A DNA stretch of 64,000 nt. Source: Alitta virens. Taxonomy: Eukaryota; Annelida; Polychaeta; Phyllodocida; Nereididae. The notes below the pieces were generated by a model. It saw only the letters and a program-made list of their open reading frames with translations, ran no database searches and was not told the origin of the DNA. Positions 7,641 through 44,784 of the stretch are shown here, piece by piece (positions within the stretch are counted from its first letter, which is position 1; every line of letters starts with the position of its first letter). Location of the stretch: NCBI GenBank assembly GCA_932294295.1, contig OW028585.1, positions 27,280,177 through 27,344,176 of the forward strand, read 5' to 3'. Made by a program: the position numbers and the translations under genes.

Positions 7641-7700
7641 GGAGTTAACAAAGGTGTTCCTCAAAGATATGCACTGGGTCCACTATTATTTTACACACGG
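7641..7700 (+). pseudogene. Decayed reverse-transcriptase fragment (non-LTR retrotransposon)
   Basis: In one frame the DNA reads GVNKGVPQRYALGPLLFYTR. This is RT motif GVPQGSVLGPLLF with 10 of 13 positions kept. The flanking frame is closed and no further RT motif was found, so it is a relic of a few dozen codons. Confidence 0.65.
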
Positions 7701-7709
7701 CTAAGAATA

Positions 7710-9350
7710 TCCGCTCGACCTGGCCATGTGCTACAGGTATATGCAAAAATACCAGACAAAATATTGCACAAAAATAAAGACTTTCGCACGGGTATTATGA
7801 AACAAACTGTATTGATGTACATATTTAATGATTTCAATTGTTTTTCAAGTATCTGGGTGTAATTGATTTAAATACTTATGCTTTTAATGTTGATGAGCAC
7901 ACAAATGTTTTTGCTGAGTTATTCTCACGAAATAATACATTTTAATATACATGTCATGATTGATGGAAAACCTGAGTTGAAACTAAAAATTGCAAAAAAC
8001 AATGATATAGAATAATGAACTAGCATATTTCCTCATATTGCTGATTTGATCGAAGTAATGTTAGTTCTTCGTGTACTCACCAGGCGGCGTGTACTCCAGA
8101 TTTTACACCATCTGGTGGAAAGTGAAGGAAACACTATCCAGCAGAAATGTCTAAAATTGTAAATAAATATTAATTATAAAAAATTACTATAAACTTCAGT
8201 ATCATAGTGTTATATATACAACAACTTTAGTAGCACAAAATAAAACTGAAAATCAGCACCGTAAAATAGTGAAAAAAATACAACCAAAAAAATGCATTTA
8301 TATCAAGAATTCGGTAAAACCACCGCACTCATGGCAGAGTTTCTGTAAAAATGTTTTAATAAATTGCCTTAGTTCGTTTCATATGTGAGAATATTAATGT
8401 ATATATTTTTTTTATTACAAATTGGATCACTTTCTGGTACCTCAAAAATGTTTAATAATAAATACTCAAATTGGATTTAAATTGTAATAATTCACATTAT
8501 AATGTTTTGACACTACAAACATATCTAATTATAAGAAGATATATGGTATTGATTTATGACGGTTCTACAGAAACCTGCAAATTAGCATTCAATTACATCA
8601 AACATGCCTTTTATTTATAGCTAAATACCCGCATTATAAGTTATATCAATTGATAATTATCATGTTAATGAAATTATTTTATATAATTAGTACATGTCAA
8701 AGTAAAAAATGCGGGCAATAGCATTTTAATTGATTAACTTCAAAGAAAATTGTCTTTAATAACCATGCCTTAAAAATTGCACTTAAGGCCTCTTAAGAAC
8801 TAGAGTCTACCTTAAATACTTAAATCTTTTAAAAAGGAACTTATTTAAGTTTAAAGAAGTTTAACTAGCATATGGGAATGACCTAGAAATATTGTATCGT
8901 GAAATATGACTTATGATCAGATGAATTTTAATTTGTCACTGGATAATATGGAATGTTATTTGTTGTTTATTTAGCAAGTAAGTCATTTTTAATATTTCTG
9001 TGGCTATTAATCCATTATATACCTCAACAAGATTGGCCAACAATTTTATTATTTGTTATTTGAGAAGTATTTCTTTAAATTTTCTAAATAGAATGACAGA
9101 AAAATATAATATAAATTAAACAACAGGGCAATATGAAATGACAAAACAGAAGAATAATGTTATTAATAACACATAGTAATGTTAAATTCAATTTAAAGAT
9201 ATAATAAAATAGATCAGACAAATTAAATAAGATTAAAAAAATATAAGGAAATAAAATAGAATATTAAATTAACAGAATATAATATAACAAAACTGAAATT
9301 CATATGATAAAATATAATATAATATCTTCAGCATGTTAATTTAAAGATAT
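7710..9350. other. Very AT-rich, no feature recognised
   Basis: No domain-bearing ORF and no clear repeat by eye. Confidence 0.4.
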
Positions 9351-10298: not shown

Positions 10299-10313
10299 AT
10301 GTTCTCATACAGT
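10299..10313 (+). CDS. AOS-LOX-like gene, tentative first coding exon (MFSYS)
   Basis: The ATG has A at -3 and an in-frame TAA 12 nt upstream. It is followed after five codons by a strong GTAAGT donor in phase 0, which is what exon 2 needs. So short an exon cannot be proven by eye; another upstream exon could supply the start instead. Confidence 0.35.
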
Positions 10314-13300
10314 GTAAGTGAAAACTATTATATTGACATTAATTTTGTTAATTGTTTCCAATTGTTTGTCACCATGTTTTGTGTGTGATACGTGAAATTC
10401 ACTTAATTTAAATTAATGAGTTTTTTCTAACTGCCTTGATTTTATAAAATTAGCTTTGATTTACATAGATTGTGTCACGATTGTATATTTTACATACCTC
10501 AATAATTACAGCAACACAAAACGTTATTATAATATGATTATAATTCATTAATTATAATAATCATGTAGTAATCTAGCTATGCTTAAAACCATTGAATATG
10601 TATAATGGAACCAATATTGGTTTCACAAACATGATTAAACAATATTTTAATAAAAATAATTGATTTTATTTCGTGAAAAAGGTACATAATTATATACATA
10701 TAACATGTATATACAATATATTTACATGAATAATAGTTAGGAATCAAGTGGGTATGAAAATATAATCATGAAATAGATAAAATAAGTTAAAATCATGATG
10801 TACATCAAATGTCTAAAATATCATATATTTCATCATATTTTTTTTTTTTTTAAAGTATCACAATTGATAATTTTAATCATTTAATTCGACCTTTTTGATG
10901 ATATCTTAGACATTGTGTCATTGAATTTATTTTTATGGCCTATTTGTTTTGTTCAATTGACAGAAAGGTAAACAAAATGAGCAAAAAAGCTGGTCAGAAG
11001 AGCTTCTAAAAAGGAGAAATTGGCTGAACCCACCTCCAGCTCGTCCAATCGGTAAACCCTACCTGGAAATATATGGAGTCATGAAACCCCGAAAACAGGT
11101 CAGTCCAGTAAAACTTTTCTTTTTTATATCCTATTATTTATTAAAAAGCGATTACTGCATACACTTGTATTGCGTTGCCTCATTTACAAACTAACTTTGC
11201 GTGTAAGCACACTGAGCTGCCAACCACTGGGTCCTGGGTTTCAAATCCAGCCCATGTTGGAAGGTTGTTTCATCATTCGCCTCATTACCTTGGCACCTGC
11301 CTGTCCTGATCGGCCCTATCTGGTCACCAAACCCCCCCCCCCCCTCCCCCCTTCCGGATCCGCTACTGTTGTCTGACACCAATTGGATCTTGACCATAAA
11401 CTAAGGATGTACTTGTACTTGTACTTGAACAAATTTACTTGGACTTAAGTACTCAGACAGATAGCTGTACTTGGACTTGTACTTGCTATATTCTCATGTA
11501 CTTGTACTTGTACTTAAGTAACTTGTACTTGTACTTAAGTACATTGTGTTGTACTTGAACCCCAAGCCTGATTCTGGTGCAAAAATATGGAACGTAATGC
11601 CTCCTCACCCACCCACACTCAATGCCTTATATTAATGCCTCAATGTATAATAACTTTACCTAATATAATAAAAACAACATGCATAATAGAATTATATGTT
11701 TTAGAGAACAAACGTGAAGTTTAAGAATGAGGTATGGAAAAACGATTACATCAAAATCTTCAAAGAAGAACTTCCGGAAGAATACGACAAGAAACTGGAA
11801 CAACAAAATAAGATGTTTCAGGTAGAGATAAAATACTTATTGATTCTAATAATGGTTAACCCTACACTCCGAATAATAATATGCATTAAACCAAGAAAAT
11901 TACCAAATTAAAAAGAAGAGATTAACCTTACAACAGAGGAAAATGACTCCACCAATGACACTAATTTAGATAAAACAAACAACATGCATGGAAGGATTAA
12001 TTGTATTTACAATAGGTTAAATTGTACTCTCGATAGGAGTCATTGTCGACATGAGTACTCTGATACACAATCAAAATAATTATATGTGGAGTTCAGTTTA
12101 CAGAGTCAGTCCAAAAAGATGCTCAGGCACTTTATCATTCAGATCTGAATTGTTAAGCGATAAGCTTTAAAATGTATAATATACAGTCATGGGTTGTATT
12201 TAGCTATAGTTTTGCTACAATTGCTGATAACAAGTTATGCTAATCTAGTAAACCTAAAAAAAATTAAGAATAAAAAAGCTTGATATCATGCATGGCAAAA
12301 TGTGCCACGTGTGTCTTCCATGCAATCGGATAAATGCATGTAAAATGCATGGTTTCGCCTGATCATATTTAGCCAAAAACCATGCATTTTCCATGCATTT
12401 ATCCTTCTCATGGAAAGTGCACGTGGCACATTCAGCTGTGTAACGTCATCATAATGATAAGATTCAAACAATTTTTGCGTTTATCTAGAAAGCGCTCGGT
12501 ACAAAGACACCGATGACAGACTTTGCCATCAACATCATCGAAGACAAGTTCAAACCCAGTGCGGGATTAGTCGCTCTTCGTTTGCGGAACCAACTGAGTT
12601 ACCCCCACGGCATCGGAGCGGCAGGATTCGCAGTTGTACAAGAAACTGATCTCATTCCAGAGAATGATTTCTTCCTCCCTGGAAAGATGTTTGAAGTCAG
12701 GGTCATTCATTCCAATTTTCCAAGTAAGGGATTTATTTTTAAATTTTCACGTCAAATAAAATCCATCTTTATGATATTAGGTTGATTATATCAGTCATGT
12801 ATATTGGCCATATTCATTGACAGGGCAAGAATATTGAAAATATGTCAATTACCACTGATGTGCTTCTCTATTGTATTGTATTGTATTGTATTGTATTGTA
12901 TTGTATTGTATTGTATTGCATTGTATTGCATTGTATTGTATTTATTGTATCAGTGCTACTGGTCTGATGCTTAGCCAGCTTATATTATATATATGGCCAG
13001 CTACCAGAGACAGACGTAATGATGAGTTGATAACCTTGGGAGTCCACACCATGTTACAAATTCACCCCATGGGTGGGGTTTTTCGCTAGCCTCTGTATAG
13101 ACACCGAGTACAAGGCACTGCCAATTAGACGTCTCATGGCAATGTCAAACTTTCAGGGATATAATATCCTGATATTAAGATTTACATTATTTTCTGTTTA
13201 TTTAGATTCTTCAGACGATGCAGCTCCAGGGGTGAGATGTCTAGCACTGAAACTGTCTGATCATGACACAGAGAGTCCTTTGGACTTGTTATGCTACACA

Positions 13301-16300
13301 GGGTGTATAAGCCCGTTCTACAATTACCAGTCGGTTTTGGATTACATTTACGCCAACGAAGGCGACGAATCGGCTTACCGAAACTACTTGCTTAAAATGC
13401 CCGTTCAGTGAGTAAAAAGTGGACAATCTGATAAATTTAGTAGACTTCAGAAAGTTTATTTATTCAATATATGTGGAAGCCAGTAGAAGTTAATTATTCT
13501 TATCGATTGCAGCTGTCAGCAATAAATTATTTTCAACAAGTAAGGTTCCCACACTCGATATTTACGAAGAATGTTCACACCCATTAAACAAAGAAGAAAT
13601 GATAAACGTATGATTTTCATCGCATCTTCACCCTTGTATAGACACATGAAACATGCTCAATTGATAAATGTTCACTATGAAAAAAAAGAGAAGGTATCAC
13701 CTCATGTTAATTCGTCAATTTTACCTTAATTACATTTTGTCAATTGCATCCAGTCTACAGGCTCACCTAGAGGGAATTAGGCATCTTCCCGAGTCGTACC
13801 AAAACCTTCACTACTACCCGCAAGTGACTTACGACTTCGTCGGCAATGACGGAGAACCGCACCTTGCCAGGTTCCGGATTATTCCCACCGATGACAGGCC
13901 GGAAAGTGGTCGTTTGTCAAAAGAAAAACAAAGAACAGTTTGGTTAGTGAATTATTTTTGATTTTTGTAAATTCATTGTTCATAATTTTAAACAAGGTTC
14001 TTGGGTATCTTTATGTATGTAACATGTACTGTCAGTGGCTGTCTGTTGCTGAAATTGGCTGTCTATGTAAAAATTATGGGAAATTAGATGCTCATAAAAT
14101 ATCTGAATCTGAAACATTATTGGCGTGACTAGACGGTGTAGACACAACCAGGTGATTCAATCCGGAAAGGTACAAATTGAATGATGGAACTGAGGTTTTG
14201 TCGCTCGGTGATCTATGTTTTTTTCTTTACTTGCAGGAAGTTATCGAGACCTCTGAAGGAGAGTCGTGCCATGGATTACCTGAAGAACGAATATTCAGAG
14301 AGGTTTCATTATGGAACAATCGACTACTTTCTGCAGGTAAATGAATTTCTTCTTCTCTTTATTTCTTTTTTGTAATTATGAGACTATATTGTCTGAAGTG
14401 TGACTTACACATACAGTGGTGAAAAAAGTTCTGCACATAAGATTTTGATTTAAAATGCTTATTTATATGTTAATGTGCATTAGTTGTTGAATACCAATGC
14501 ATAGCCTACCCAGATAGCATTCCAAATCGGGCCAGCGTCGTTTCTACATTGTTTTGACATCGCCGACATCGTGCTGACGTTGATACAATTTGGAATGCTC
14601 TCTGGTCTAGTGTGCTTGACCAGGTCATTGGTGACCTTTCCTGCTCTTGATTGTCTCAGCATAGTTATTGTTTTTGTCACATACCGATTTATTAAAATTA
14701 CATAATTTATGTCTAATTTTTGGACCTTCTAAAGTTTTATTTATTACTATCAGATTCAACTTCACAAAGTCAAAGGTAAACAGTGTCATTCCATGTACAA
14801 CAACAGCATTGCCTGGGAGGAGAGCATGCACCCCTGGACAACTCTCATGAGGATTTCCCTCACGAGGCAACTCCCTGATGACGTCACTCAGGTCATGTCC
14901 TTCCACGTGACCAACTCGCCTGACACCTTGCGGTTGCCTAGTAAGTTGATTGATATATATATCTAGCATAAATGACCAACAGTTTATACAGTACCCAAGT
15001 CTTAGTGTCTCATCATAACATCTGCCTGGCAGCTGGTGGTAGGCCTAGGTACATATAATCTGAGCTTTTAACAGTAAAATATGGAACTTTAAAAATCTGC
15101 ACTCTCTCTGATAATTGCTCAATGTCTCAATGCTACTGCTCTGACATAGGCAGCTTGTATATATTACCAGCTTCCAGGGGCAAATGTAATGATGAGATGA
15201 TAAGGCTGCTTGGAGTCCACACCATGTTAAACCTTCACCCCATGGGTGGGTTCTTTGACTTGCCTCTGCATAGAAACCGAGTACAAGGCACCTACAATTT
15301 AGAGTCTCATCCGAACGACATCCAGCTGGGATGTACCTCGGGATTTTCTGGCTCCGTAGCTCTTCCCGAGCTACATCCTAGCTGGATGACCATAGGATGA
15401 GACGTTAAATTGGAGGTGCCTTTTACTCTGTGTCTGTGCTGAGGCAAGTAAATGGACATGTAAGACTCTGGTCAAATTATATCCTATACATTTTATATTG
15501 TATTTGACCTAGCCCGAGGAACTCTTCCTGACCGCACACCCCTGTCGGCTCTTATACATTACGTTTATAGTGGGCAGCCACTCACAAAATATAAGATAAT
15601 AAATAAGAGCTAAGCGAACATCTGATTTCTCAGGCTAAATTTGACCTTGCATGATAAAATCAGCAATGTCCCATGTTGCCATTTAAGAAAAAAAATCCAA
15701 TGTCTCATGTCACATTTAACTATATATATAAGTTATAATAACTAGGAATATTAAAACTGTTGCCTGTCACTTTTTAAGGAAATAGAGTCTTATGTCTATC
15801 ATTAAAATAAGAGCTTCAGTGTCACTCCGGTTAAGAAGGGCAATGACGCACTGTCGATTTTGTCGATTTTACCCGCCTCGAGCCATGGTGGAGACACAGA
15901 AGCGTTATTATATCATACTTTTACTACGTACAATTCTTTTCCAGAACCCAACACAATTAACGACTTCAACGTTGTTGGAACTATCTTGTCTGACGCTAGC
16001 GACATGTACTTCACTGCCCAACCACAAGAGTTTGTTGATATTCAAGATGGTGATGTCACAGAGTATATTATCCACCTGGTGGTTGGTGGCAGTAGTACTA
16101 AAGGGGGCACTCAGGTGGATGTGTCTATTGCTTTAATTGGTTAGTAATACATTCTTGCCAATGTTTTTAAAAGAAATTCTAAAAGTTTTGTAAAAGTCTG
16201 ACTTGCCATGTCAACAATAATAAATGTTCCAAACCCTTACAGTTAGTTTCATTTAAAACGGTCAATTCTAAACAGCTGTTGCGGCCTATACCTGACTGTG

Positions 16301-19300
16301 GTCTGAACATGCTAAAGCCAGCTGCTTCTGTCCACTTCTATAGCTAATAGTCGGCTTATATTTATCACCAGAAAAGTGTAAACATTGGCAAATGTAGAAA
16401 TTAGTGTAATACATCACAAATATGTACTTTTAGATCCAGTTTTTAGCAGCCAGCTATGACAAATTTGGCTGGGTTTCAATTTGACAGGCTGTTTTTAATG
16501 AAACTAGCTGTAGCTACTGTTGCTAATTTTTTAACCAGCTTGTAAAATTATTACTTACCTTTAACTTATACATTATGATACATATTATGAAGCCGAAGCC
16601 ACAAACAGCCACAGACATATTTTATATTATTTGTGCCATAGTCAGAGACTTTGAGAACAATAGGCCATTAAATTTACTATAGAGTTATACTTAATTAAAA
16701 AATTAAAATAAACAAACAAACAACAAAACAAAGTTCTGTATGACACTTTAACAAAATGGCATTTGAAACAATGGAATGAGTGCCTAGATTTGAAAGGAAA
16801 CTTATTGTTTGATATAAAAAAAAATAATTGCTTTCTAAAAATATCGCTTAATAGCATAGTTCATTTACACAATGTTTTGTCATTAATGTAATTTTGTGTT
16901 CATGGTTTCTAGGTCTGGACAATTGCACAAGATATCGAAAACTGTCACCAAGGCAACCAAGCGATTTATCTAGCAGATCCAAAAACACTTTCACCTTCAT
17001 GGACAGACCTGTGGGACTCTTTCAATGCGCTAAGGTAGCTAAAAATATCAGTACAATAATTTATTGTTGTAGAGGCTATTAGAATTATGAGTCAATTATA
17101 GGGGGGGGGGGGGGCATTGTAGGGGGTTCTGACCAAATTAATAGCCATATCCCTCTATTTTTGAAGGTACATGTACTACAGAACATTTAGCAATGTCAGT
17201 AGCAGATTTAGTGGGGGTTGATTTCCCCCCCCCCCTCCCTTGGCCTAGTAAATTTTAATTTAAAAATATTAAAATATTCAGCAGTCCCAACAATACATTT
17301 CAATTTGTCAAACCCCCCCCCCCCCCGAAACATTTTATGGATCCGCCCCTGAGAATATACCTGAATCCGCCACTGGGAAATATATAGATAACTGATAGTC
17401 ATCTTTACTCTGTGTTATTCATTCAAAACATTGACTTCCCAAGTTAGAACATTTCTTCAAAGTCAGTTGCTTGCCAAATCAAGTAGACCATCTGAGATCT
17501 GTACATTTCTGGTGGTGGGGGCCTAGTTCAGTGGTAGCGCGCTGCTTCCAACCACTGGTTCACCGGGTTCAATTCTCAGTCGAGCCTATGTTGGATGGCT
17601 GTTTTATCCTTCGTCTCATTGCCATGGTCCCTGTCGGTCCTAATTAGCCCATCAGGTGCAGAAATACAGGACATAAAGCCCTAATCCACCACCACTGTAC
17701 ATTTCTCTTTGAAATTACCCATTAAGACTGCCATTAAAATGATACATTTATTGAAATTTATATGAATGTGAAATCTGAAGCTCTCTCTTATGACCATTAA
17801 CTAAAAACAAACTGAAGCGATCATCTTATACTGAGAGCAAATGTATGAAATATGCTTTCTTGAGTCGATTGGAGAAATGAACATACCCAGATAGCATTCT
17901 AAATCGGCCCAGCATCGTTTCCATATAGGCCACTGTTGTTACAACATCGTATCAACATCGCCGACATCGAACCGATGTTGAAAAGATTTGGAATGCTATC
18001 TGGGTAATGATGCATAATACTTTTGACATTGTCAAACAAGACAATTTTGTTGTGTGCGAAAGAACATACATAGTCGCCATGATATCGTTATAACTTTTCA
18101 TTTATATTAGCTTTCTACATCCATTTGTACATGTCGCCGTAACAAATTTCATGTTTTCATGACATGACGATATAGATTATCATTATCGACTGGGTGACAT
18201 AACAGAATATGTAATGTATTGATGACTGACACCTGTCAGTACTTGAACATCCCGCCATGGGATCAACCAAGGCCACCCGCTTTCCCTTTTGCTAAGTACT
18301 TTTATTTTTATGAGTTTCTGCTCAAAGAACATATCGAAGGCCAGGCATCTCGGATAGACTGTCAAGTCTGCATGGAAGAATACATGCTGGAAATACATTT
18401 CTGAGTTGCCTTCCATCATTAAAAGTTGTAGCTTAGCAAATGCTTATGTATTTCTGCAAGGTGTATCAAAAGTTTATGGAAGGCTATCATGGACATCAGC
18501 CTTGACTTGCTTGAAAACGTAGTGATTAGCCTTAGTATCGTTGATTGGAGAAAAGAATTAAAACTGGAATAGATCATAATTATCAACCCTGAATGGGTAT
18601 AAGCCTATATGATACTCCCTTTGAACTCATGCATAAGCTCACAACACTGGAAATGAATCAGCTAACAAATAAACACAAATGTATATGACAGTTCACTTGG
18701 GAGGCAGTGGGACAGCTCTAAAAGTCTGAAGAAAAACTGATTGCTTAGTCCATTCTGCGACTTGGCACTACACTACAGATATGTCAATCATCAGACACAG
18801 CAACTGGGCCAAGTTGGATTTAGCGACTACAGTTTCATGACCAATTCAGAGGTGACAATTAAGAATGCGGTACATGGCCAGTTGTGCCACATGCGTTTTC
18901 CACGCGTTTGAATTGCTAAAAACGCTAAAAACCATGCGTTTATCCTTCTCATGGAAAACGCACTTGGCACATTTGGCCATGTAGCAACAAAGATTCAAAT
19001 ACATTATCATAAGCTCATAATACATTACCATACATCAAGTCTGTCTGCACTCTGATGAAATGACGCAGCTGATTCTGTGCAGTAGAAAACCCACGAGACA
19101 CAGGCTACTGGACCTGGGAATCTCAGATGGACAGGAAAAAAGCTTTATAATAGCTTATTTTATATCATTGCCGGGTATAAATAAAGTTGTATGTTATGTT
19201 CTGTTCTGTTATCTTATCTTATTTATCTTATCTTATCTTATCTCATATCTTATATTATCTTGTCTTATATTATCTTATATCTTATCTTATCTTATCTTGT

Positions 19301-22300
19301 GTTGTCTTGTCTTATCTTATCTTATCTTATCTTATCTTATCTTATCTTATCTTATCTTATCTTATCTTATTCTTCTTGGACGATTTGGGTCTTCTGCTCA
19401 GCAGAAAATTGTAGGCTATTGGAAATTATCTAGGAGATCCTCAATATGAATTTAAAACCAGATGAATAGAATTTCCTGCTTGTGGTCCTAAAAATTGTTA
19501 ACAGACCAATCTGAAAGACACAGTAAAGTGAATGATTTTGCTTTTGGATAACAAAGTCACAGCAGGTGAACTTAGAAAGTATTTCAAACTTATTTTGGAG
19601 ACATTGGATGTGCTTGACAGCAGCAAAAGATTATGACAAGGACACGTTCAATTGCTTTGAATAAATATTCTTACACTATCCTGAGCTATGGCATTTTCGA
19701 AGAGAGTCAAATTACCTGGTGTACCTCAAATGGAGGGAAAACGAGTTGTTACTTTGCTTATGAAACACGTAGCCTAAAATTTCTTTACTTTATGAATGTT
19801 GGACCTCTTGTTTCAAAGAAGCAAGAATGGGAAATAACCTATACAGCTTATATGATATATGCCACCTGAATGAAACATGTTTTAATACAAAAAAAAAAAA
19901 AACACTATATTGCCTTGCTCTTTGCTTTCTACACGAAATAATATTGACATTATTATCCATGCAATAATTACGTGGAATGGAAACTTTTTTTTTGCTCTCA
20001 GTTGACAGCTGACATCATACATTTCAGGGCATGATGTAAAGAACTGAACATGAAAAAAAACCAGAAATTTACGAATCATTTCCTTTATTTGGTTGTTTTG
20101 TTCTTTATGGTTGTTATCTGTTGGATTGTTCATAGGTATCTTATGATATTTGTTGTTATAATTTGTTCATGAAATTTGGAATATATAACAGCAAATAGGG
20201 ATTGAAATGGGATTAGTAGACAAGAACTTAATATGTCATATTCCAGATCTGTGCACAATTCCAATTTGAATTCTACATAATTCTAACTGGAATAATAATG
20301 AAGAAGGAATTAATTTCTATGATATGCTAGTCTTTGATTTTTTGGGGTTAAAGCAAATATTGTCAATCCAGTGACACTTCTGGTAGAATTTAATTACATA
20401 TTATCCATACATATGTATAATTAAGAGGTTATGTAATGTCCTGACTGATTTTACTTTAATACGCACTGTTGTTGACCGTTAGATCATGGCAGTTTCCAGA
20501 GTGTCCTTCAAATAGTTTGTTAGTTCATCCATTGAGCAATTGATGGCTCTTTCAGATACTGATATCCAGAGATGGCATTGCCAACCACACAGACTGATGC
20601 AGGTGTTGTGGTCATCAAACTCTGAAATATATTTCAGTCATCAATGCATTAATGTCCAGTTATGTGTTAATGTCTAACAGGCGACTAATAAGTGTATGAA
20701 AGAATAGTCACTGTTGAGACATGAAATTTATTCCCAAATTTCCATTGATCTCTATGTAGCTTCAACTAAATCCTAAAATTATATTTTATGAGATTTGTTT
20801 TGCATTAATCTTACAGTATTAGAATAAATATTATTTATTATATCCGAACAGCTTTACGTTAAATCAGATGAAGATGTTTACATTGACTACCTGATAGTGG
20901 CGACACCTTACGACGGGAGGTGCTACACCCTCTTATGTCACAGATGGATGGGCACAGCTTGTGTCCTCACAGTGCTGACTGAAACCACAGGTACAGTAGA
21001 ACCAATAAAAAGCTGCTTGTCAAAAAGGGTGGGTTGGGGGTGGATTAGGGTTTTATGTCCTGTATTTCTGCACCTAGTGGGCCAAGCTTGTTAAAAAGGA
21101 ACTTAACTGATGTAACAAATTCTGCTACATCTGTTTTATTCAAACTGCTATAAGATTGGGAATTTTGAATTTGATACTTCAGAGCGAAAAAAGAAAACGA
21201 ACATTTTTTTTATACAAATAACAAGGGAAGATTAAATTACTTTTAGACAAGTTAGATAGTAGATAGATAGACAGACAGCATAACAAACAGGTAGATAACC
21301 AGAGCAAAATTTAAGAGATGGGAATCATAAATAGGGCACATAGGAATTTTTTTTTAATAAAATACAGGATATAAACAGACCATAGGGAAAAGATAATATA
21401 TTAGTTAAAAATAAAAATAAAAGCTAAATTTTTTATAATTTTTTTAGAAACCACACCACTCAAGAGAGGAACTTTCCTTCAACTTCAGCGCCATCTCGAG
21501 TTGCAGGAACAACGCGCCATCTATCAGTGGGCTAAGAAACCGGCAGATTCCCTCATGGCTGAGCTTCCGGGTCATATGCAAATAGATGACCTTGCCAAAG
21601 TGCCACGTGACCTGAAATTTGAAGGATTTAAGGAAATGGTTAATGAATGGGAAACATTATGCAATCAAGACCAAGAAGGTATTTATAATCACTGTTATCA
21701 GTATTGGAAAATTGACCATTGCTTAGCATTTCACTTTGAAATCAAAGATATGTACAGTATTTAAAAAAAATAATAGTATATATGTAATGATTGATAAAAG
21801 TAATGATTGAAATGTAACATCAGAGTAGATTAACATGTTAGCTGCATACATTTACACAACTAAAATTAGTGCCTTGCATGATAAATACTTTACACCGTTT
21901 TAGCACGGCAGCTATGTTAGCATTTTTGCCTCGTTGACCTAATTTTGATTATGTCATATATTTATGACATCATTACACCTCCATTGTTCTTGCACTCTGT
22001 GACCTCACCATGGCCATTGTCTACTGATGACGTCACAATAATATATCTGAGTACAAAGAGAGGTCAATGAGGCAAAAACTCCAACATGGCTGCCGTGTGA
22101 AAAGGGTGTATACCTTACATGACGGTATGCCTTCTTCCGTGTAACCCATATTGAAGCATCTGAAAGTGGTCTTTTAATGATTGCTTTGAATTGGATTTTG
22201 TATTGAATTGACATTATTGTCAACTGCAAAACAGTACAGCAACAAGCATAGAAGGGTGTAATAATAAATTGATTAATTAATTAATTAATCAATTGATTGC

Positions 22301-25300
22301 AATCGTGCAATGTTCACTTTAGCGGGTTACAAAAGAGTTACATATACAATACAAGAAATTGTAAGAAGTTGTACGTTGGACCTTCTTCATTTTGAAATTG
22401 TAGGAAAGAGCATGTTCGATGCCATGGTGTCGTTCCTGAGATCGAAGACACCGCTGGAAAAGTACGAAGACATCGTCTCCGGTTTTATCAACAGATATCC
22501 CGGTTTGAAGACAACTATAGATGGATGGAAAGGACAGAGCGATGAGGAGTTTGTCAGACAGGTAAGATTCAAATCAGGGGCGTTGATTCAGGGGGGGGGG
22601 GGAGGGATGTGGGGGATATATACCCCCCACTTTCTGAGAATGTAATTATCCCCCCCCCCCTGAAATTCACAAACGAAAATTACCCTTATTCACGCACATT
22701 TGTTTTGGAACATTTGTGCTTTGTTAAACAGCTTTACACTTGATATCACATATCGGTACAAGTTTATAAGTTTGGCATAAGTGATACACCATTAATTTAC
22801 CTCTTGGCCAGTGTCCGCGCATTAATTGCTAATACTTGTCAGGCGAGGGAAAGTCAGTGGGACAGAGAAAGTAAGCCTGCATCCCCCCCCAACCGTCAAG
22901 AGAAATCGACGCCCCTTATTCAAATCGAAGTTTTAGCATGAGCAGAAAAAAAACTACTGACGAAGCGGCAAGTCTGTATTATAATTTTTCTGGCCTGATT
23001 ACACAGACACACTCATTTTGTTGACTTTACACGTGATTTAAAATTGGGCCCCGACTTAGTTGTAAAACCGGATACATTCACTCGCCACTATGGCTTCCGG
23101 TCAGCGTAACAGCAGTAACTTGAATGCTTTGCCTGCCACCAGACATAACATGGAACGATTCTTTTGTTCTTCAGATTGTGTACGGTCCAAACCCATTAAA
23201 GATAACACGCCTGACCGAGCTTCCAGAAAACTTCATGCTTCCGGAAGATTTTGAAGATATACTGACCCCTGGGACAACCCTTCAACAGGAACTTCTGGTA
23301 AATAATTTTATATACGTTTTTTTGATTCAGTTAATCAAACAAACTAGTTGTTGATTGTTGGCTGGCTACTGCACGCTATTCGAATGGACCTTTGCTGCCA
23401 TCTTGTGGATTGCATCAAAACATTAGCTTATTTTCCTATTTCAACTTGAATTTAGGCCTAATGAAAAAAAAAATTTATAAAATAAATATTTGGAATTTAT
23501 GACTTAATTTAGTTGTATGTAAAGAGCTTGCTGAAATATCATATTATATGAATACAGTAATACAAACTATCAATTTTGTCATTCAAAATTAATTTTATAA
23601 ATTTATCAATAAATGTATTGTTTTCTGAGCAGTTGGAAACTAGTTTTTTTATTGTTGCAGGATGGCAAGCTGTTTATGGTGTCCTACCCAGAACTTTTGG
23701 ACTTGGCCGAACCTTTCTGGGAAGACCCTCACAAATACTTATGCACACCGATGTGCATCTTCGGTGTCCGATTCGGAAAACTGGTTCCTCTCGCGATACA
23801 ACTGACACACACTCCTTCTGTGTTTACGCCTGTGCTCACACCGTTAAACAAAAAGGTACCTGTCTCATCAATTATTTCAAAGAGATAACTGATAACTATA
23901 GTCAGGGTTTTTAAGCTCCAAAATTTGGCAACATCGTTCACTTTGTGACACCACTCTCCTTGCACAATGGTATAGATGGGCAATAATTTTGGATATGTAT
24001 GGAGCATGTTTGTCATGGAAACGCAATTTTTCATTTTTCAACATTACACAGAAATTGTGAAATAACAAGTACAACTTATTATCCATGCAAAAATTACGTG
24101 GAATGGAACTATTTTTTTTTGCTCCCAGTTGACAGCTCACAGACTGACAGGACTAGACATCATGGGCTGTGTGTATACATCTAAAAACAGAGTTTGACCA
24201 ATCATGTGCTTTGTTAGATAGTTTTATTGTATAGAGTGGTTATCCGTTTGATAGTTTATAGTTATTCTTTGAGATTTGTTTATATTATTTTGTACTTTTT
24301 AATTGTTTTCCAAGTTTCTCATAAAAATTTGAAACTGTAACAGCAAAATAGGGATTTAATATAGGATTAGCAGACAAGATCTGAAGTGATGTCATGTTCT
24401 GACTCTAAAATTTCAATTTGAATTCTATTTAATGATTGCATTGATATTTAGAGGCCTTATAGATTACTAATGCCAGTTGGCTTGTCGTTTTGAGATAATC
24501 AAGCAATTATGTCATGGAGTGCAGTTGATGACATCACTTTAGATGTTTTCATTCAAACAATCCTTGGATCTTCCGCCTGTGCTAGTTACAAGATGACCAT
24601 AAACGTCTTGATGTTATAACAAATTTTTTTCCGCAGGGTGAAATATCGGAGTGGCAGATGGCCAAATTGTGGGTTCGAACCTGTGACCTCCAGATCCATA
24701 TTCTCTCAGTTTTCCTACTGGGCTCCTATCTTTTGATGGAACCTGTCACGATTGCAATTGCCAGAAATTTGCCCGCAGAACACGCCATCTACCGTTTATT
24801 GTGGCCACACTTCCGCCATCTGCCTGCAATCAACGCCATCTGGAGGAAATATCTGTTTGGTGATGACGGATTACTCTGCAAGGTAACATTATAGTATTTT
24901 TCTGCAATTGTATTTAAAAACCTAATTCAGGTTCAGTTTTTGTAGATATCCAAAAACCTCAATAGTTTTATAAAATCAAATGTAGTCTCGTGCATCTGAG
25001 TAGTCTAAAGGGGCGTTCACACTATCAAGTATAAGAGCTACGTATGACCACGTATGAAAATATTTTTTCACTCCTGTTTATCCTTGGCCATACGTGATTC
25101 ACTCACCGAGTGTTTTACGTATACTTGGGCTAATTCGTAGATCACTCCTGGTTGCGCTTGACCACTCACGGGCATACGTGAAGAGAGAAAAACATTTTAA
25201 AAATGTTTAAAACTACGACGGACATTCTACGAGTAAATTGTTTATAGTTACATAACTTGCTCGGGGTCCATTGGCGAGCATCCTATGTACGTTCTACGTA

Positions 25301-27999
25301 CGTTCTACATACGTACGTGCCATATGTAGCCATACGTAGCCACTGTCCATCCGTATATACTCATCATCCACTCGCATCCACTCTCAGGACGATCGTTAAA
25401 TGCTCGACGGTGATCCGTCTGACATCCATCGCACGCCCATGGTCTTCCGTGCCCATCTTTGTCCATCCTTAAACCAATCGCACGGGCAATCTACGAGCGA
25501 TCTAGAAGTTATATGTGATTAACAGAGCCATGAGTGAGCACGTATAGCCAATTTTTGACATACGTGGTCATACGTAGGTCTTATATGTGATAATGTGAAT
25601 GTCCCTTAATAGTTACGACACTCTTTGTGAGCTTCGTCTCAGCTGGATGTTGGTAACATGATAGATAGATTTATAGATAGATAGAAACGTAGATAGATAG
25701 ATAGATAGTAAGATAATTTGGCAAGTTCTTGCTGCTATCGAGGGTTGATTGATGAGGTGAGGGAGAGAGGAGTCCATCCATGTTACACATTAATTACCCC
25801 ATAAGTAGGATCTTTTACTTGTTTTACTTGCCTCAGCATAGACATTGAGTACAAGGGACCGCCAATTTAACGTCTCATCCAAACGACATCCAGCTGGGAT
25901 GATGCTCATGAAAGGTGCCCGGGCCTGGGATTGAACCCGGGTCCTTCAGAGGAGCAGGCGAGCATATTACCACTTTAGTTGCCTATAGAGACGTTAAATA
26001 GGTGCTATGTACTCATTGTCTGTGCTGGGCAAGTAAAATTCGTCACACATCGGGTAAATTTTGACTTATCATTATGTCTGCCTCTGGCAGTTCATCATAT
26101 AAACTGACTAAGCTTGAGACGAGTGCAAATTTATAATACATTATAATACATACTCTTGCAAACTTTGTCTTCTGTTCATATTAGGTTCTCCATTCTGGTC
26201 CCACGAGAACTGAACATTTATCATTCATGGTGAAGCAATACAAGAGATTCCGGTGGTCCTATCTCAGTCTTCCGGAAAACATTGATGACCGCGGACTACA
26301 TGAACTGCCCAATTTTGATTACAGGTGTAAAAAAAATGCCCGAATTAGATTAAATTCACTACTTTATTAAAAAAAATTTCAGTATTTAATTTATCTTTTT
26401 GTTACTGTAAAGGAATTCTGGCTTGAAATTATGGGATATCATCAATAGCTACGTGTGTGACATCATCCATTTGTGCTACCCAAGAGATGATGACGTGGCA
26501 AGAGATATGGAATTGCACAACTTCCTGTCTGACCTAGCAACCAATGGTTACCATGAGGTCTGTTGCTTTCGTTATTGCCATGGTTATCAAATGTTACGCA
26601 TAAATGGAAATGTGTCAAATGTTATCCGCTATTTGATTGTATCACTCGACATTGAATATTTTTGAAAATGAAATTTCAGAAATGTGAGCTGCCGAAGAGC
26701 TTTGATAATCGGTCAGAGTTGATCAACTTCTGTACGATCATCCTTTGGCGAATCTTGGGACAGCGATCGGCAGTGTCCAAGGATCTCCTGAGTAACTACG
26801 GATTCATTCCCGCTTCACCGCCTTTCATGAGAGAGCCACCGCCAGCAACCAGGTATTGTGGTATTATATTGTAAATATATTATATTATCACCAGGAGCTG
26901 AAACTATTTTTATTTATTTTTTATGCCAAGTGGGAGATGTTGATTGATGGATTAATTTTTGAATTAGGCGCCAAGATGGCTGGACTGAAGAAGAGTTCTG
27001 TACATCTCTGCCCCCTGTAGGAAAAAGCCAGCAGTTCATCAAGATGTGCCATCTGCTGGGAGACAGCGACAAAAGCTCTGTATGTTAACTATCTAAATAT
27101 CATCATTTTAAAATATCAATAGCACTATGAAAACTTGACCTGATATCGCATCCGTGCTTCGACTTCCCACACTATCTTCAAAAATTTTTTATTTTTATAT
27201 TGAGAATGAAATTTAAAACACTATAAAAGTGGTCGAAGCACGTAATAAATGAATAATCAGTTTCATGGCCGTTCATCCAATCAGACATTTCATCAAGAGA
27301 CGCGCCCGCTGAACACCTCAGAATAGGCGAATACTGAAGTTTAGACCAGAATGTATATTAATCGTTACATGTTCGTATGCAAAGTCGCAGACAATAATAA
27401 TGATATCCAGGTACACACCTGGATGTTGTTATTTTTGCCTCACAACTTCATGGACGGTTACAACTCCGCTGACAGAGTATCTAGAACTGTAAAGGCGTTA
27501 TAGGTCTATATTAGCCTAGGTCTATATTAGCCTTGGTCTATATTAGCCTAGGTCTATATTAGCCTAGGTCGATTGGAAAAATTCGAAAGAACGACAATGT
27601 GAAAGATAAATTCCCAATATTGAACTGCTAATATCAATAACAAAAGTTTTAATAAATATGGATACCCAGTATATAAGTCAAGCCTTGAATATTTCCCCTT
27701 GTAGTGTCTTTCAATGTTTTTGTTGGTTCACCCTGTACATCGTTAAAAGCCAAAATGTACTAAACATTAATATACAGAGATTTTGTATGTATTTATTGTT
27801 AAATTTCATAATTTTTTAGGTGCCCTTGACCAAGATGACCAATGACAACTGGACAGATATTAGAACGAAGGATGCTTTCCACAGTTTTCATATGTCCTTG
27901 ATCGACTTGCAGGTTGCCATGGAAACACAAAATGAAAACTCCAACAACACCGTTAATGTATCTCTTCTTCCACAAAATATCTCGACGTCATGCGCGTGA
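10299..27999 (+). CDS. Catalase-related (AOS-like) / PLAT / lipoxygenase fusion protein, 21 exons, predicted inactive in both catalytic domains
   Basis: Joining 21 GT-AG exons (listed separately) gives 3339 nt: 1112 residues plus TGA. Residues 1-60 are an unassigned basic N-terminus. Residues about 60-425 match the catalase-related allene oxide synthase of corals; residues about 430-545 look like a PLAT domain; about 550-1112 are a lipoxygenase domain. Coral AOS-LOX turns arachidonate into 8R-hydroperoxide (LOX part) and then allene oxide (heme part). Here the cofactor residues are changed: Y127 replaces the distal heme His, Y198 the active-site Asn, L408/S412 the proximal Arg/Tyr; in LOX H802 is kept but F807, R987, S991 and C-terminal A1112 replace iron ligands. 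Fold motifs (DYLKNEYSERF, GPNPLKITR, LPKSF, MREPPPATR) are kept and no stop or frameshift was found. Length is near the coral protein (about 1066). Domain identity is strong; loss of activity is inferred; the first exon is tentative. Confidence 0.92.
10964..11098 (+). CDS. AOS-LOX-like gene, exon 2 (N-terminal extension)
   Basis: Acceptor TTGACAG, donor GTCAGT, phase 0-0, 45 residues beginning KGKQNEQKSW and containing NPPPARPIGKPYLEIYG. It has no in-frame Met start and a TGA just upstream of the acceptor, so a further 5' exon is required. No domain recognised. Confidence 0.75.
11200..11345 (+). mobile_element. SINE-2 copy in intron 2 of the AOS-LOX-like gene
   Basis: CCAACCACTGGGTCCTGGGT, GCCCATGTTGG, GTTTCATC and CCTGCCTGTCCTGATC match SINE-2 at 17.5 and 57.2 kb. 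It ends in a C tract at 11331-11350. Confidence 0.75.
11408..11560. repeat. Degenerate (TACTTG)n array
   Basis: About 150 bp of 6-bp units with TTAAGTA breaks, in intron 2. Confidence 0.9.
11705..11821 (+). CDS. AOS-LOX-like gene, exon 3
   Basis: Acceptor TTTTAG, donor GTAGAG, phase 0-0, 39 residues (RTNVKFKNEVWKNDYIKIFK...). Lys/Glu-rich and probably helical; it leads into the catalase-like domain. Confidence 0.8.
12289..12440. mobile_element. TIR element family M2 (palindromic, about 150 bp)
   Basis: Ends ATGTGCCACGTG... and ...GCACGTGGCACAT are inverted copies, with internal CATGCATTTATCC motifs. Related copies at 18.87 and 60.61 kb. Intron 3. Confidence 0.85.
12489..12723 (+). CDS. AOS-LOX-like gene, exon 4: catalase-like domain, distal heme side
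   Basis: Acceptor ATCTAG, donor GTAAGG, phase 0-1, residues 90-167. It holds the catalase distal motif HxxGxGxxG as Y-P-H-G-I-G-A-A-G (residues 127-135), with the catalytic His changed to Tyr. IPENDFF..GKMFEVRVIHSN matches the next AOS block. Confidence 0.92.
12868..12948. repeat. (TTGTA)n microsatellite
   Basis: About 80 bp in intron 4. Confidence 0.95.
12950..13145 (-). mobile_element. SINE-1 copy, subtype B
   Basis: On the minus strand: GTCTAATTGGCAGTGCC, CCCATGGGGTGAATTTGTAA, and the B-type end CATTACGTCTGTCTCTGG. Intron 4. Confidence 0.85.
13206..13407 (+). CDS. AOS-LOX-like gene, exon 5: catalase-like domain
   Basis: Acceptor ATTTAG, donor GTGAGT, phase 1-2, residues 168-234. LALKLSD..ESPLDLLCYTG corresponds to the AOS strand that carries the active-site Asn; that position is Y198 here. 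Confidence 0.92.
13754..13942 (+). CDS. AOS-LOX-like gene, exon 6: catalase-like domain
   Basis: Acceptor ATCCAG, donor GTTAGT, phase 2-2, residues 235-297. LPESYQNLHYYPQVTYDF and ARFRIIP...ESGRLSKEKQR match the AOS domain closely. Confidence 0.93.
14237..14336 (+). CDS. AOS-LOX-like gene, exon 7: catalase-like domain
   Basis: Acceptor TTGCAG, donor GTAAAT, phase 2-0, residues 298-331. Carries the AOS-family signature DYLKNEYSERF and YFLQ. Confidence 0.93.
14508..14606. mobile_element. TIR element family M1
   Basis: ACCCAGATAGCATTCCAAAT at the left and ATTTGGAATGCTCTCTGG at the right. Core ACATCGCCGACATCG. Intron 7. Confidence 0.85.
14754..14940 (+). CDS. AOS-LOX-like gene, exon 8: catalase-like domain
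   Basis: Acceptor ATCAG, donor GTAAGT, phase 0-1, residues 332-393. IQLHK..., AWEESMHPW and LPDDVTQVMSFHVTN align with the coral IQIHEASP / ILWDKETHPW blocks. Confidence 0.94.
15120..15460. mobile_element. Fold-back pair of SINE-1 copies (minus then plus)
   Basis: 15120-15345 is a minus-strand SINE-1B, 15365-15460 a plus-strand partial copy. They meet head to head around a short loop: AGCTGGGATGTACCTCGGGA and TCCCGAGCTACATCCTAGCT. Intron 8. Confidence 0.85.
15945..16139 (+). CDS. AOS-LOX-like gene, exon 9: end of catalase-like domain and start of PLAT
   Basis: Acceptor TTCCAG, donor GTTAGT, phase 1-1, residues 394-458. NVVGTILSDAS sits where catalases have the proximal RxxxY heme motif, giving L408 and S412. 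Y434 to G459 resembles the first PLAT strand (YxIxVxTG...GT...VxIxLxG). Confidence 0.9.
16913..17034 (+). CDS. AOS-LOX-like gene, exon 10: PLAT domain
   Basis: Acceptor TTCTAG, donor GTAGCT, phase 1-0, residues 459-499. Weakly conserved; it fits the PLAT middle by position and phase. The Trp residues that coral LOX uses for membrane contact are absent. Confidence 0.8.
17101..17114 (+). repeat. G14 tract
   Basis: Uninterrupted G run in intron 10, 66 bp after the exon 10 donor. Confidence 0.95.
17198..17377. mobile_element. Short TIR element with internal C tracts
   Basis: Left end CAGTAGCAGATTTAGTGG and right end complement CAGTGGCGGATTCAGGTA are inverted copies. C tracts at about 17225 and 17312. 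No ORF. Confidence 0.6.
17515..17698 (+). mobile_element. SINE-2 copy (tRNA-derived)
   Basis: tRNA-like head with box A TAGTTCAGTGGTAGCGCGCT and box B GGTTCAATTC, then the family body GTTGGATGGCTGTTTTATCC and tail CATCAGGTGCAGAAATACAG. Intron 10. Confidence 0.9.
17885..18005. mobile_element. TIR element family M1, best-preserved copy
   Basis: ACCCAGATAGCATTCTAAAT / ATTTGGAATGCTATCTGGGT, 121 bp, with further internal complementarity around ACATCGCCGACATCG. Intron 10. Confidence 0.9.
18871..18983. mobile_element. TIR element family M2
   Basis: TACATGGCCAGTTGTGCCAC at the left, GTGGCA-like CTTGGCACATTTGGCCATGTA at the right, inverted copies. Intron 10. Confidence 0.88.
19198..19372. repeat. 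(TTATC)n microsatellite
   Basis: About 175 bp; all three frames stay open over it as low-complexity peptides. Intron 10. Confidence 0.95.
19890..20320. repeat. Dispersed repeat, intron 10 copy
   Basis: TATCCATGCAATAATTACGT, GTGGAATGGAA, GCTCTCAGTTGACAGCTGAC, ACAGCAAATAGGGATT and GGATTAGTAGACAAGA recur in order at 24.06-24.44 kb in intron 15. No coding capacity. Confidence 0.75.
20852..20990 (+). CDS. AOS-LOX-like gene, exon 11: end of PLAT domain
   Basis: Acceptor AACAG, donor GTACAG, phase 0-1, residues 500-545. DVYIDYLIVATPYDGRCYTL..HRW matches the PLAT end (D-W-F-V..VII...F-C-F-R-W), with the usual WF changed to VY. The 3.8-kb intron before it is full of repeats. Confidence 0.88.
21025..21095 (-). 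mobile_element. SINE-2 tail fragment
   Basis: Complement of the SINE-2 3' end: AGGGTTTTATGTCCTGTATT TCTGCACCTA. Intron 11. Confidence 0.75.
21448..21678 (+). CDS. AOS-LOX-like gene, exon 12: PLAT-LOX linker and first LOX helices
   Basis: Acceptor TTTTAG, donor GTATTT, phase 1-1, residues 546-622. HLELQEQRAIYQWAKKP and LAKVPRDLKFE match the LOX block R.KELE.R...Y.W...PRD..F. Confidence 0.93.
21891..22110. mobile_element. TIR element family M3 (about 220 bp)
   Basis: Roughly 50-bp inverted ends: ACACCGTTTTAGCACGGCAG ... TTTTGCCTCGTTGACCT and the complement at the right; flanked by TA. A copy in reverse orientation lies at 59.61-59.83 kb. Intron 12. Confidence 0.9.
22404..22561 (+). CDS. AOS-LOX-like gene, exon 13: LOX domain
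   Basis: Acceptor TTGTAG, donor GTAAGA, phase 1-0, residues 623-675 (GKSMFDAMVSFLRSK..., W...SDEEFVRQ). Corresponds to the LOX region before the FLNGxNP motif. Confidence 0.88.
22573..22918. mobile_element. TIR element with G/C tracts
   Basis: Left TCAGGGGCGTTGATT and right AATCGACGCCCCTTA are inverted copies. G12 and C12 tracts sit inside both arms. It starts 12 bp after the exon 13 donor. Confidence 0.6.
23175..23297 (+). CDS. AOS-LOX-like gene, exon 14: LOX domain
   Basis: Acceptor CTTCAG, donor GTAAAT, phase 0-0, 41 residues. VYGPNPLKITRLTELPENF matches FLNGxNPxxxxRCxxLPxxF of lipoxygenases. Confidence 0.95.
23661..23855 (+). CDS. AOS-LOX-like gene, exon 15: LOX domain
   Basis: Acceptor TTGCAG, donor GTACCT, phase 0-0, 65 residues. 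DGKLFMVSYPELL, YLCTPMCIF and KLVPLAIQL match the LOX G.IF.vD...L, yC.aPl.L and PiAIQl blocks. Confidence 0.96.
24040..24445. repeat. Dispersed repeat, intron 15 copy
   Basis: Second copy of the 19.9-20.3 kb repeat: TTATCCATGCAAAAATTACG, GCTCCCAGTTGACAGCT, AACAGCAAAATAGGGATT, GGATTAGCAGACAAGA. Confidence 0.75.
24637..24882 (+). CDS. AOS-LOX-like gene, exon 16: LOX iron-ligand helix with ligand lost
   Basis: Acceptor CCGCAG, donor GTAACA, phase 0-0, residues 782-863. WQMAKLWVRTCDLQIHILSV is the LOX helix. The first His is kept (H802), the second ligand His is F807, and the next conserved His is Y812. ARNLPAEHAIYRLLWPHF follows as in active enzymes. Confidence 0.96.
25008..25608. mobile_element. 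TIR element of about 600 bp, CACGTATG-rich
   Basis: Left AGGGGCGTTCACACTATCA...CTACGTATGACCACGTATG and right complement AGGGACATTCACATTATCA...CTACGTATGACCACGTATG. Many ACGTA motifs inside; no domain-bearing ORF. Intron 16. Confidence 0.85.
25655..26130. mobile_element. Fold-back pair: SINE-1A (minus, full length with tRNA head) then SINE-1B (plus)
   Basis: 25655-25730 is the GATA tail. 25731-25985 is a minus-strand SINE-1A; read in reverse it has box B GGGTTCAATCCCAGGCCC and the body GACGTTAAATTGGCGGTCCC. 25985-26130 is a plus SINE-1B ending TTATGTCTGCCTCTGGCAG. Intron 16, ending 55 bp before exon 17. Confidence 0.88.
26185..26324 (+). CDS. AOS-LOX-like gene, exon 17: LOX domain
   Basis: Acceptor TATTAG, donor GTGTAA, phase 0-2, residues 864-909. 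The usual GGGGH motif is replaced by SGPTRTEH. LHELPNFDYR matches LPGFYYRDDG. Confidence 0.92.
26413..26557 (+). CDS. AOS-LOX-like gene, exon 18: LOX domain
   Basis: Acceptor TAAAG, donor GTCTGT, phase 2-0, residues 910-958. NSGLKLWDII, YVCDIIHLCY and DDDVARDMELHNFLSDL match the LOX W.AI..F...Ii..yY..D..V..D.E...f..Dv block. Confidence 0.95.
26680..26852 (+). CDS. AOS-LOX-like gene, exon 19: LOX C-terminal iron-ligand helix with ligands lost
   Basis: Acceptor TTTCAG, donor GTATTG, phase 0-2, residues 959-1015. LPKSFDNRSEL is typical. The QHxAVN motif reads Q986-R-S-A-V-S991, so the ligand His and Asn are Arg and Ser. YGFIPASPPFMREPPPATR follows without gaps. Confidence 0.96.
26968..27079 (+). 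CDS. AOS-LOX-like gene, exon 20: LOX domain
   Basis: Acceptor AATTAG, donor GTATGT, phase 2-0, residues 1016-1053. RQDGWTEEEFCTSLPPVGKS corresponds to the LOX segment with a LP motif after the PPP block. Confidence 0.88.
27498..27572. repeat. Minisatellite, GGTCTATATTAGCCTA unit, about 4.5 copies
   Basis: Near-perfect 16-bp units in intron 20. Confidence 0.95.
27820..27999 (+). CDS. AOS-LOX-like gene, exon 21: terminal exon, no C-terminal Ile
   Basis: Acceptor TTTTAG, then 59 codons and TGA. Active lipoxygenases end in Ile, whose carboxylate binds iron, after a Y-x-YL.P..IPNS motif. Here the tail is Asn/Ser-rich and ends NISTSCA. Confidence 0.9.
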   Translation: MPLTKMTNDNWTDIRTKDAFHSFHMSLIDLQVAMETQNENSNNTVNVSLLPQNISTSCA

Positions 28000-28078: not shown

Positions 28079-28393
28079 CTGTTCACTTAAGCGCCATTAT
28101 TTATTATCGGTTATTTTGTGGGGACTCTTGTTTACAGTCAGAGGACAACCCTTGCTGAGTCGGCTCACCTGAAATTGCATGTTGCGGTGGGTTTGGCGTA
28201 ATTTAAAAACTTGTTAATTCCAAAAACTGTGTCGATTGATGATACTACTGTATACAAAAATTCATCGTCTGGTCATTTTTGTCCCCGTTTATTGATAAGA
28301 TTCGCGCCACCTCGGCCTATGCAGTGTCCTCTGACTGTGAATTAGCGCCCACAATGAATAACCGATAATAAAAATCTATGCACAAGTGAACAG
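28079..28393. mobile_element. Small TIR element (MITE) in the presumed 3' end of the AOS-LOX-like gene
   Basis: The two ends are inverted copies over about 70 bp: CTGTTCACTT...GCGCC...TTATTATCGGTTATT...ACAGTCAGAGGACA on the left and its complement on the right. No coding capacity. It starts 80 bp after the stop codon and contains an AATAAA. Confidence 0.85.
28367..28372 (+). terminator. Candidate poly(A) signal for the AOS-LOX-like gene
   Basis: AATAAA, 368 bp after the stop and inside the right arm of the TIR element. Another AATAAA is at 28897-28902. Which is used cannot be told. Confidence 0.25.
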
Positions 28394-44547: not shown

Positions 44548-44784
44548 TTCACACCTCATTTATCCAAAGAATGCTTCATTAATTTCCCCCTAATTACTTC
44601 TAGATACCCCAAAGCAATTAAGAAAACCCTAAATATCAAGATAAACCCACATTGGAGGCTATTGATTTTCACACCTCGTTTATCCAGGGGGTGCTTCATT
44701 AATTTCCCCCTAATTACTTCTAGATACCCCTTAGCAATTAAGAACACCCTAAACATCAGGATGAACCCACATTGGAGGCTTGAG
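44548..44784 (+). repeat. Local tandem duplication within copy A (two units of about 118 bp)
   Basis: TTCACACCTC..TTATCCA... and GCTTCATTAATTTCCCCCTA ATTACTTCTAGATACCCC occur twice. Copy B (49372-49487) has one unit, closer to the second. Confidence 0.93.

Follow-up and report, generated by a model that had tools for sequence, protein, structure and literature searches.

The AOS-PLAT-LOX architecture is known from corals. In the protein of Plexaura homomalla (PDB 3DY5), a catalase-related allene oxide synthase (AOS) domain is followed by a PLAT domain and a lipoxygenase (LOX) domain. Enzymes of this kind turn arachidonate into 8R-HpETE and an allene oxide, and the coral one produces hormone-like fats. 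The residues of the two active sites are named in excerpts from two articles. In the first, R64, R102 and R360 are heme-coordinating, T66, H67 and N137 are distal residues and Y353 is the proximal residue (PMC5617202). The second, a coral survey, lists H757, H762, H943, N947 and I1066 for the LOX domain and T66, H67, R349 and Y353 for the AOS domain (PMC5793058). According to the survey excerpts, T66 and R349 are altered in two stony-coral isoforms, and one isoform lacks T66 and H67 and carries Leu for Y353; all predicted coral sequences hold the LOX residues, one of them being without the C-terminal end. The same excerpts give Ile, Leu and Val at the Coffa position of stony-coral fusions and mention no AOS-LOX fusions outside corals and a sea anemone (PMC5793058).

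Here we describe an AOS-PLAT-LOX gene of the annelid Alitta virens (king ragworm) in which the known architecture is combined with the loss of the active sites of both domains. The gene lies in a window of 64,000 nucleotides, the whole stretch of DNA that was analysed (C13:27280177-27344176, in a genome of 671,116,069 bases and 23 contigs). Among kinases and proteases, pseudoenzymes are a familiar phenomenon. Among the open-access papers listed, judged by title or the start of the abstract, no report of a LOX pseudoenzyme was found, nor was one of an AOS-LOX with both active sites replaced, which is a thin basis for claiming absence. Annelid and brachiopod fusions with replaced active sites, standing beside relatives that keep their ligands, raise a testable question: what is the role of the AOS-LOX architecture once its chemistry is absent?

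Rebuilt from the DNA, the gene has a CDS of 3339 nt, and its 21 exons and 1112 encoded residues are those of the preliminary description (Table 1). The marks of a pseudogene are absent, as the spliced CDS has no internal stop and no frameshift and all 20 introns are GT-AG. The repeats of the window, compared by eye with the exons, are all intronic or outside the gene. Evidence independent of the exon model comes from a spliced alignment guided by a Lingula anatina protein, which scored 845 at the locus and contained no stop. Because control alignments to the reverse strand, to another part of the window and to three shuffles scored only 56-72, the gene is more than a product of chance and is real. 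The guided alignment agrees with the model in part, as it reproduces exactly 10 of the 21 exons and 25 of the 42 boundaries.

Table 1. Positions of the gene, its exons and neighbouring features in the window, and of related loci elsewhere in the Alitta virens genome
Feature	Position	Strand	Basis or remark	Codons at active-site positions
Whole gene	10299-27999	+	rebuilt from DNA	
Exon 1 (MFSYS), start codon	10299..10313	+	exon model; no homology support, least certain exon	
Exon 2, N-terminal extension	10964..11098	+	exon model; outside 3DY5 match	
Exon 3, homology to coral AOS begins	11705..11821	+	exon model, 3DY5 match	
Exon 4, AOS; R64, T66, H67, R102 positions	12489..12723	+	model, Lingula-guided alignment	CAA 12591 (R64), AGT 12597 (T66), TAC 12600 (H67), ATT 12705 (R102)
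Exon 5, AOS; N137 position	13206..13407	+	model, Lingula-guided alignment	Tyr TAC 13295-13297 (N137)
Exon 6, AOS	13754..13942	+	model, Lingula-guided alignment	
Exon 7, AOS	14237..14336	+	model, Lingula-guided alignment	
Exon 8, AOS	14754..14940	+	model, Lingula-guided alignment	
Exon 9, AOS end and PLAT start	15945..16139	+	exon model	Leu TTG 15986-15988 (R349), Ser AGC 15998-16000 (Y353)
Exon 10, PLAT; altered loop positions	16913..17034	+	exon model	
Exon 11, PLAT	20852..20990	+	exon model	
Exon 12, LOX	21448..21678	+	model, 3DY5 match	
Exon 13, LOX	22404..22561	+	model, Lingula-guided alignment	
Exon 14, LOX	23175..23297	+	model, Lingula-guided alignment	
Exon 15, LOX	23661..23855	+	model, Lingula-guided alignment	
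Exon 16, LOX core; H757, H762, Coffa (Trp) positions	24637..24882	+	exon model	Phe TTC 24712-24714 (H757), Tyr TAT 24727-24729 (H762)
Exon 17, LOX	26185..26324	+	model, Lingula-guided alignment	
Exon 18, LOX	26413..26557	+	model, Lingula-guided alignment	
Exon 19, LOX core; H943, N947 positions	26680..26852	+	exon model	Arg CGA 26764-26766 (H943), Ser TCC 26776-26778 (N947)
Exon 20, LOX	26968..27079	+	exon model	
Exon 21, LOX C-terminus (...LLPQNISTSCA), terminal Ala, stop codon	27820..27999	+	exon model	
MITE-like element, copy in intron 7	14507-14605			
MITE-like element, copy in intron 10	17884-18006			
Inverted repeat	28079-28393		~80 nt past stop codon	
Single-exon class A GPCR, ~380 aa	31672-32814	+	downstream of gene; Pfam 7tm_1, 86 bits	
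C11 fusion	C11:32184335-32198809	-	17 exons modelled, both ends incomplete	
C7 fusion	C7:~28519120-28554631	+	17 exons modelled, one intron ~21 kb	
Conventional LOX genes in a tandem cluster, at least six	C5:24.856-24.934 Mb			
Two further conventional LOX genes	C7:24.719-24.800 Mb			

The encoded protein has the domain order of the coral enzyme, catalase-related AOS, PLAT and LOX, a likeness already pointed out and borne out by a match of residues 2-1062 of 3DY5 to residues 60-1109 (E = 3.4e-126; identity 32% in AOS, 27% in PLAT and 29% in LOX). The Pfam Lipoxygenase model PF00305 places the protein in its family at 163.6 bits against a cut-off of 23.6. The Catalase model PF00199 found nothing in the protein even at E as high as 1, and this model matches one of the seven members of the family alignment. 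An N-terminal extension sets the protein apart from 3DY5; residues 1 to ~58, together with the 15-nt exon 1, have no counterpart there and are without homology support. This stretch would suit an explanation of the unusual residues as an assembly or gene-model artefact. Such an artefact is scarcely credible, since the replaced codons sit in exons flanked by homology, the Lingula-guided alignment agrees there, and the Alitta virens assembly has a QV of 62.6 according to an excerpt from its description (PMC10352625).

None of the four side-chain iron ligands of the LOX domain is kept. Aligned with coral AOS-LOX, the positions of H757, H762, H943 and N947 carry Phe, Tyr, Arg and Ser. Likewise, none of the eight named heme-site residues is kept: R64 is Gln, T66 is Ser (a mild change), H67 is Tyr, R102 is Ile, N137 is Tyr, R349 is Leu, Y353 is Ser, and R360 falls in a gap. 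The replacement of almost all heme and iron ligands had been reported from a first reading, and the alignment extends it to every side chain named. Four of the replacement codons (TTC at 757, CGA at 943, TCC at 947 and AGC at 353) cannot be reached by fewer than two base changes, whichever codon for the original amino acid is taken as the start, and three (TAT at 762, TAC at 67 and TAC at 137) are one base away. The His that opens the HxxxxHxxxxH motif (column 752) was considered as an iron ligand and ruled out, the ligands being 757 and 762 in the survey excerpts (PMC5793058).

The protein ends in Ala, one residue short of its relatives. This change from the terminal Ile proves little on its own, because the fifth iron ligand of a LOX is the terminal carboxylate. 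The stony-coral isoforms described in PMC5793058 (excerpts) resemble the worm protein in the drift of their AOS site and differ from it in that the worm protein has lost the LOX site too. We infer from the replaced side chains that the LOX site probably cannot hold iron, that heme very probably cannot be held in the usual way, and that the protein would carry out no turnover.

Could the protein still be an enzyme, or at least a cofactor binder, with rearranged ligands? The nearest candidates noticed are a His two residues past the H67 column and a Tyr that follows the Y353 column by three residues, or about one helical turn; either would substitute for the lost residue and support an altered heme chemistry. 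Relatives lend this idea some plausibility, as three of them (Lingula, C11 and P0017, introduced below) have a His no more than one residue away from the H67 column and Lingula, C11 and P0016 retain Y353, so that some of these proteins may still bind heme. A rearranged enzyme is nevertheless improbable, because the eight of eight differing heme-site residues, as named in the excerpts from PMC5617202 and PMC5793058, include the arginines R64, R102 and R349, and because the LOX site has no iron-ligand side chain at all.

The PLAT domain has changed as well. Its stretch still aligns with the coral PLAT domain, and PF01477 gave no match in the protein at E up to 1, a model that matches six of the seven family members. 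At the loop positions D411, W413, H415, N416, D417 and E419 of the coral protein, the worm protein has Ser, Arg, Pro, Ser, Asp and Ser, so that only D417 is kept of the six. We take the coral loop around 411-419 to be a calcium- and membrane-binding loop, with which the titles of the entry 2FNQ and of the 413-417 deletion entries agree. Beside the LOX cavity, the Coffa position is Trp rather than Gly or Ala. These changes bear on the suggestion of the preliminary description that the protein might be a lipid sensor. A sensor or carrier that binds fatty acids or hydroperoxides without turnover would draw on the many conserved non-catalytic residues that are retained (89 of 122). The altered loop and the Trp weaken this suggestion and leave it with little probability; neither is decisive, given that W413 is absent from all six non-coral fusions and that stony corals also vary at the Coffa position in the excerpts from PMC5793058.

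Have the active sites been lost selectively, or is the whole gene decaying? Invariant columns were defined from 13 LOX sequences for the LOX domain and from the coral and six metagenomic fusions for the AOS domain. In the LOX domain, the protein keeps 39 of 50 other invariant columns and none of the three iron-histidine columns (p = 0.016); in the AOS domain, it keeps 50 of 72 other columns and none of four heme columns (p = 0.012). Pooled over both domains, 89 of 122 other columns are kept versus 0 of 7 catalytic columns (Fisher test, p = 1.9e-4), in a test that assumes independent columns, takes only the four invariant residues of the eight listed heme residues and leaves out the Asn or His that serves as fourth LOX ligand. 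In other words, the protein shows the pattern of a pseudoenzyme, in which the catalytic residues are lost from a member that is otherwise conserved and intact, and the selective loss of ligands from an intact structure claimed at the outset is supported. Two relatives show the same pattern: the Lingula fusion keeps 92 of 122 other and 1 of 7 catalytic columns (p = 0.0019), and the C7 fusion keeps 92 of 123 other and 2 of 7 catalytic columns (p = 0.017). No such effect was seen by this test in C11 (4 of 7 catalytic columns kept), P0016 (3 of 5) or P0017 (4 of 7).

Further evidence comes from the open reading frame. Had the whole branch of the gene been neutral, ~91 stops would be expected, a number calculated from 856 aligned columns, branch lengths from the trees and a stop/missense ratio of 0.0595. 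Because none is present, a long neutral history is ruled out, in keeping with the argument made earlier that a decaying pseudogene would gather stops first. A recent end of constraint is compatible with the same count, and this is the core of the main rival explanation, early decay, in which function was lost recently, the ligand changes reflect relaxed constraint, and stops and broken splice sites are still to come. The LOX end branch of the gene is 2.1, the longest in the LOX tree (the second is 1.16), its share of other LOX columns kept (39 of 50) is the smallest among the six non-coral fusions (42-47 of 51 in the rest), and the PLAT domain is eroded while both catalytic sites are gone. Early decay deserves a hearing and is unlikely all the same. 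The catalytic columns are lost far beyond the other invariant columns, four replaced codons are two or more bases away from those of the lost residues, and the C7 and Lingula fusions are also open and LOX-depleted, so that decay would have to have repeated itself.

We therefore lean, with somewhat more confidence than doubt, towards a pseudoenzyme that is retained intact by selection. Relatives in the same genome are informative in this respect. One Pfam scan for LOX loci gave 17 matches from the 33 candidates of a loose first pass, so that further fusions are possible, and reading the sequence around the LOX exons uncovered at least two further AOS-PLAT-LOX fusions, on contigs C11 and C7. Both resemble the window gene in architecture and in part of their introns, as eight introns of the window gene, out of 20, agree in phase and alignment column with C7 or C11, one of them to within 2 columns. 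The C7 fusion as modelled has no in-frame stop, and neither does C11 provided that one 48-base stretch counts as an intron. In both, N137 has become His and R349 has become Leu. The LOX ligands are R/H/N/T in C7, which thus keeps one of four and ends in Gln; in C11 they are H/H/H/T, so that, unlike the window protein, C11 keeps all three iron histidines, with Thr in the fourth position, as well as Y353. The reading that every AOS-LOX of the genome is LOX-dead was dropped because C11 retains its histidines at 757, 762 and 943. As a control, conventional LOX genes were read by the same method, six in the C5 stretch and two in the C7 stretch, and all eight have the three iron histidines and Asn or His in the fourth position. 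A one-residue deletion lies beside the third His in five of these eight, all on C5, and four of the five have His as the fourth ligand.

Homologue searches outside the genome gave 15, 9 and 6 proteins. Because the search with the window protein itself gave no hit exceeding 35% identity, no close orthologue of it is known. At least three of the homologues are AOS fusions with PLAT, namely Lingula anatina P0001, P0016 and P0017, of which P0016 has an incomplete N-terminus in its AOS part. The search with the family alignment returned six proteins, comprising five metagenomic fusions for which no PLAT domain is listed and one ankyrin/PLAT protein. The Lingula protein P0001, named 'allene oxide synthase-lipoxygenase protein', is 27% identical to the window protein and is likewise a LOX-depleted fusion. 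Its LOX ligands are R/R/Y/N, with none of the three iron histidines, and in its AOS domain N137 is Ser and R349 is Leu. Unlike the window protein, it keeps T66, Y353 and the C-terminal Ile, and its set of LOX losses is a different one. Its predicted model has a mean pLDDT of 71 with the AOS part largely low, and reaches a TM of 0.89 against 4QWT and 0.59 against 3DY5 (both by target length), which suggests that the LOX fold is retained despite the depleted ligands. The LOX ligands are H/H/H/H in P0016 and H/H/H/N in P0017, the latter with a C-terminal Gln. The chain of P0016 extends ~120 residues beyond the usual C-terminal iron-ligand carboxylate, with its LOX side-chain ligands intact.

Across the six non-coral fusions with PLAT (the window protein, C7, C11, Lingula, P0016 and P0017), N137 and R349 are lost in all six, and no His aligns at the H67 column in the five that cover it. 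The loss at H67 is alignment-dependent in the three that have a His within one residue. The metagenomic fusions without PLAT (P0002, P0003, P0005, P0007, P0025 and P0026), which are short, keep H67, N137, R349 and the LOX ligands H/H/H/N and lack Tyr at the 353 column. These six have Gln in place of the His that opens the LOX motif and is not a ligand.

Were the AOS sites lost once, in a common ancestor? The trees are in conflict. A tree of the AOS domain alone, in which the catalytic columns were left in, unites the six PLAT-containing fusions from outside the corals with support of 96/96. A concatenated tree without the catalytic columns does not group them, places the window gene weakly with the coral protein (46/57) and in its best form requires three changes. 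By the AU test, neither a clade of the six (p = 0.277) nor one uniting the three genes with depleted LOX sites (p = 0.156) is rejected. A tentative scenario, which we consider rather doubtful, is that bilaterian AOS-LOX is an old family that gave up its AOS chemistry before the split between brachiopods and annelids, that several members later dropped their LOX chemistry too, and that they have been kept since then as non-enzymatic regulators of oxylipin metabolism.

How would a protein retained as a pseudoenzyme work? Selection would maintain the fold and keep the frame open even though neither metal site survives and the membrane loop of PLAT is altered. If the protein is used, its job is probably a non-enzymatic one, in which it would catalyse nothing and serve as a scaffold or partner for other proteins. 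Of the roles proposed earlier, a retained non-catalytic job is partly supported, by the intact gene and the selective loss, and its lipid-sensor version has lost ground. A protein-protein role appears likelier than that of a fatty-acid sensor, given the altered membrane loop of PLAT and the change at the Coffa position. Conceivably, the partners tuned by the protein are found among its ligand-bearing relatives in the same worm, either the C11 fusion, which has all three iron histidines, or the conventional LOX genes. The suggestion of a partnership with an active paralogue is a possible one, as C11 and the eight conventional LOX genes carry all three iron histidines and may be active. The further LOX-depleted fusions, C7 (no stop as modelled) and Lingula, and the ligand-bearing relatives beside the window gene are both in support of a retained pseudoenzyme, which would presumably be expressed. 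An excerpt from PMC11014941 describes a cell type of the annelid Pristina that is marked by numerous lipoxygenases; thus, LOX-rich cells in which a partner could act do exist.

Several other features were seen in the window. Short MITE-like elements with terminal inverted repeats (CCCAGATAGCATTC...) are present as two copies in introns 7 and 10. The ORFs at 44479-44880 and 49311-49649 have the peptide FTPRLSRGCFINFPLITSRYP in common, apparently as part of an interspersed repeat; the first of the two has no Pfam match above a cut-off. A Pfam search of six other ORFs of the window, beside the gene and the GPCR, gave nothing above a cut-off. A reverse-transcriptase remnant was suspected at 7560-7862 and was not supported by the Pfam search, in which nothing exceeded the cut-off. 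Rfam gave no match in the window at gathering thresholds. The inverted repeat beyond the stop codon has 69-nt arms that are 75% complementary and 177 nt apart. The GPCR encoded downstream of the gene has its best PDB sequence matches in opioid receptors (E 6e-17), followed by the TRH receptor and rhodopsin.
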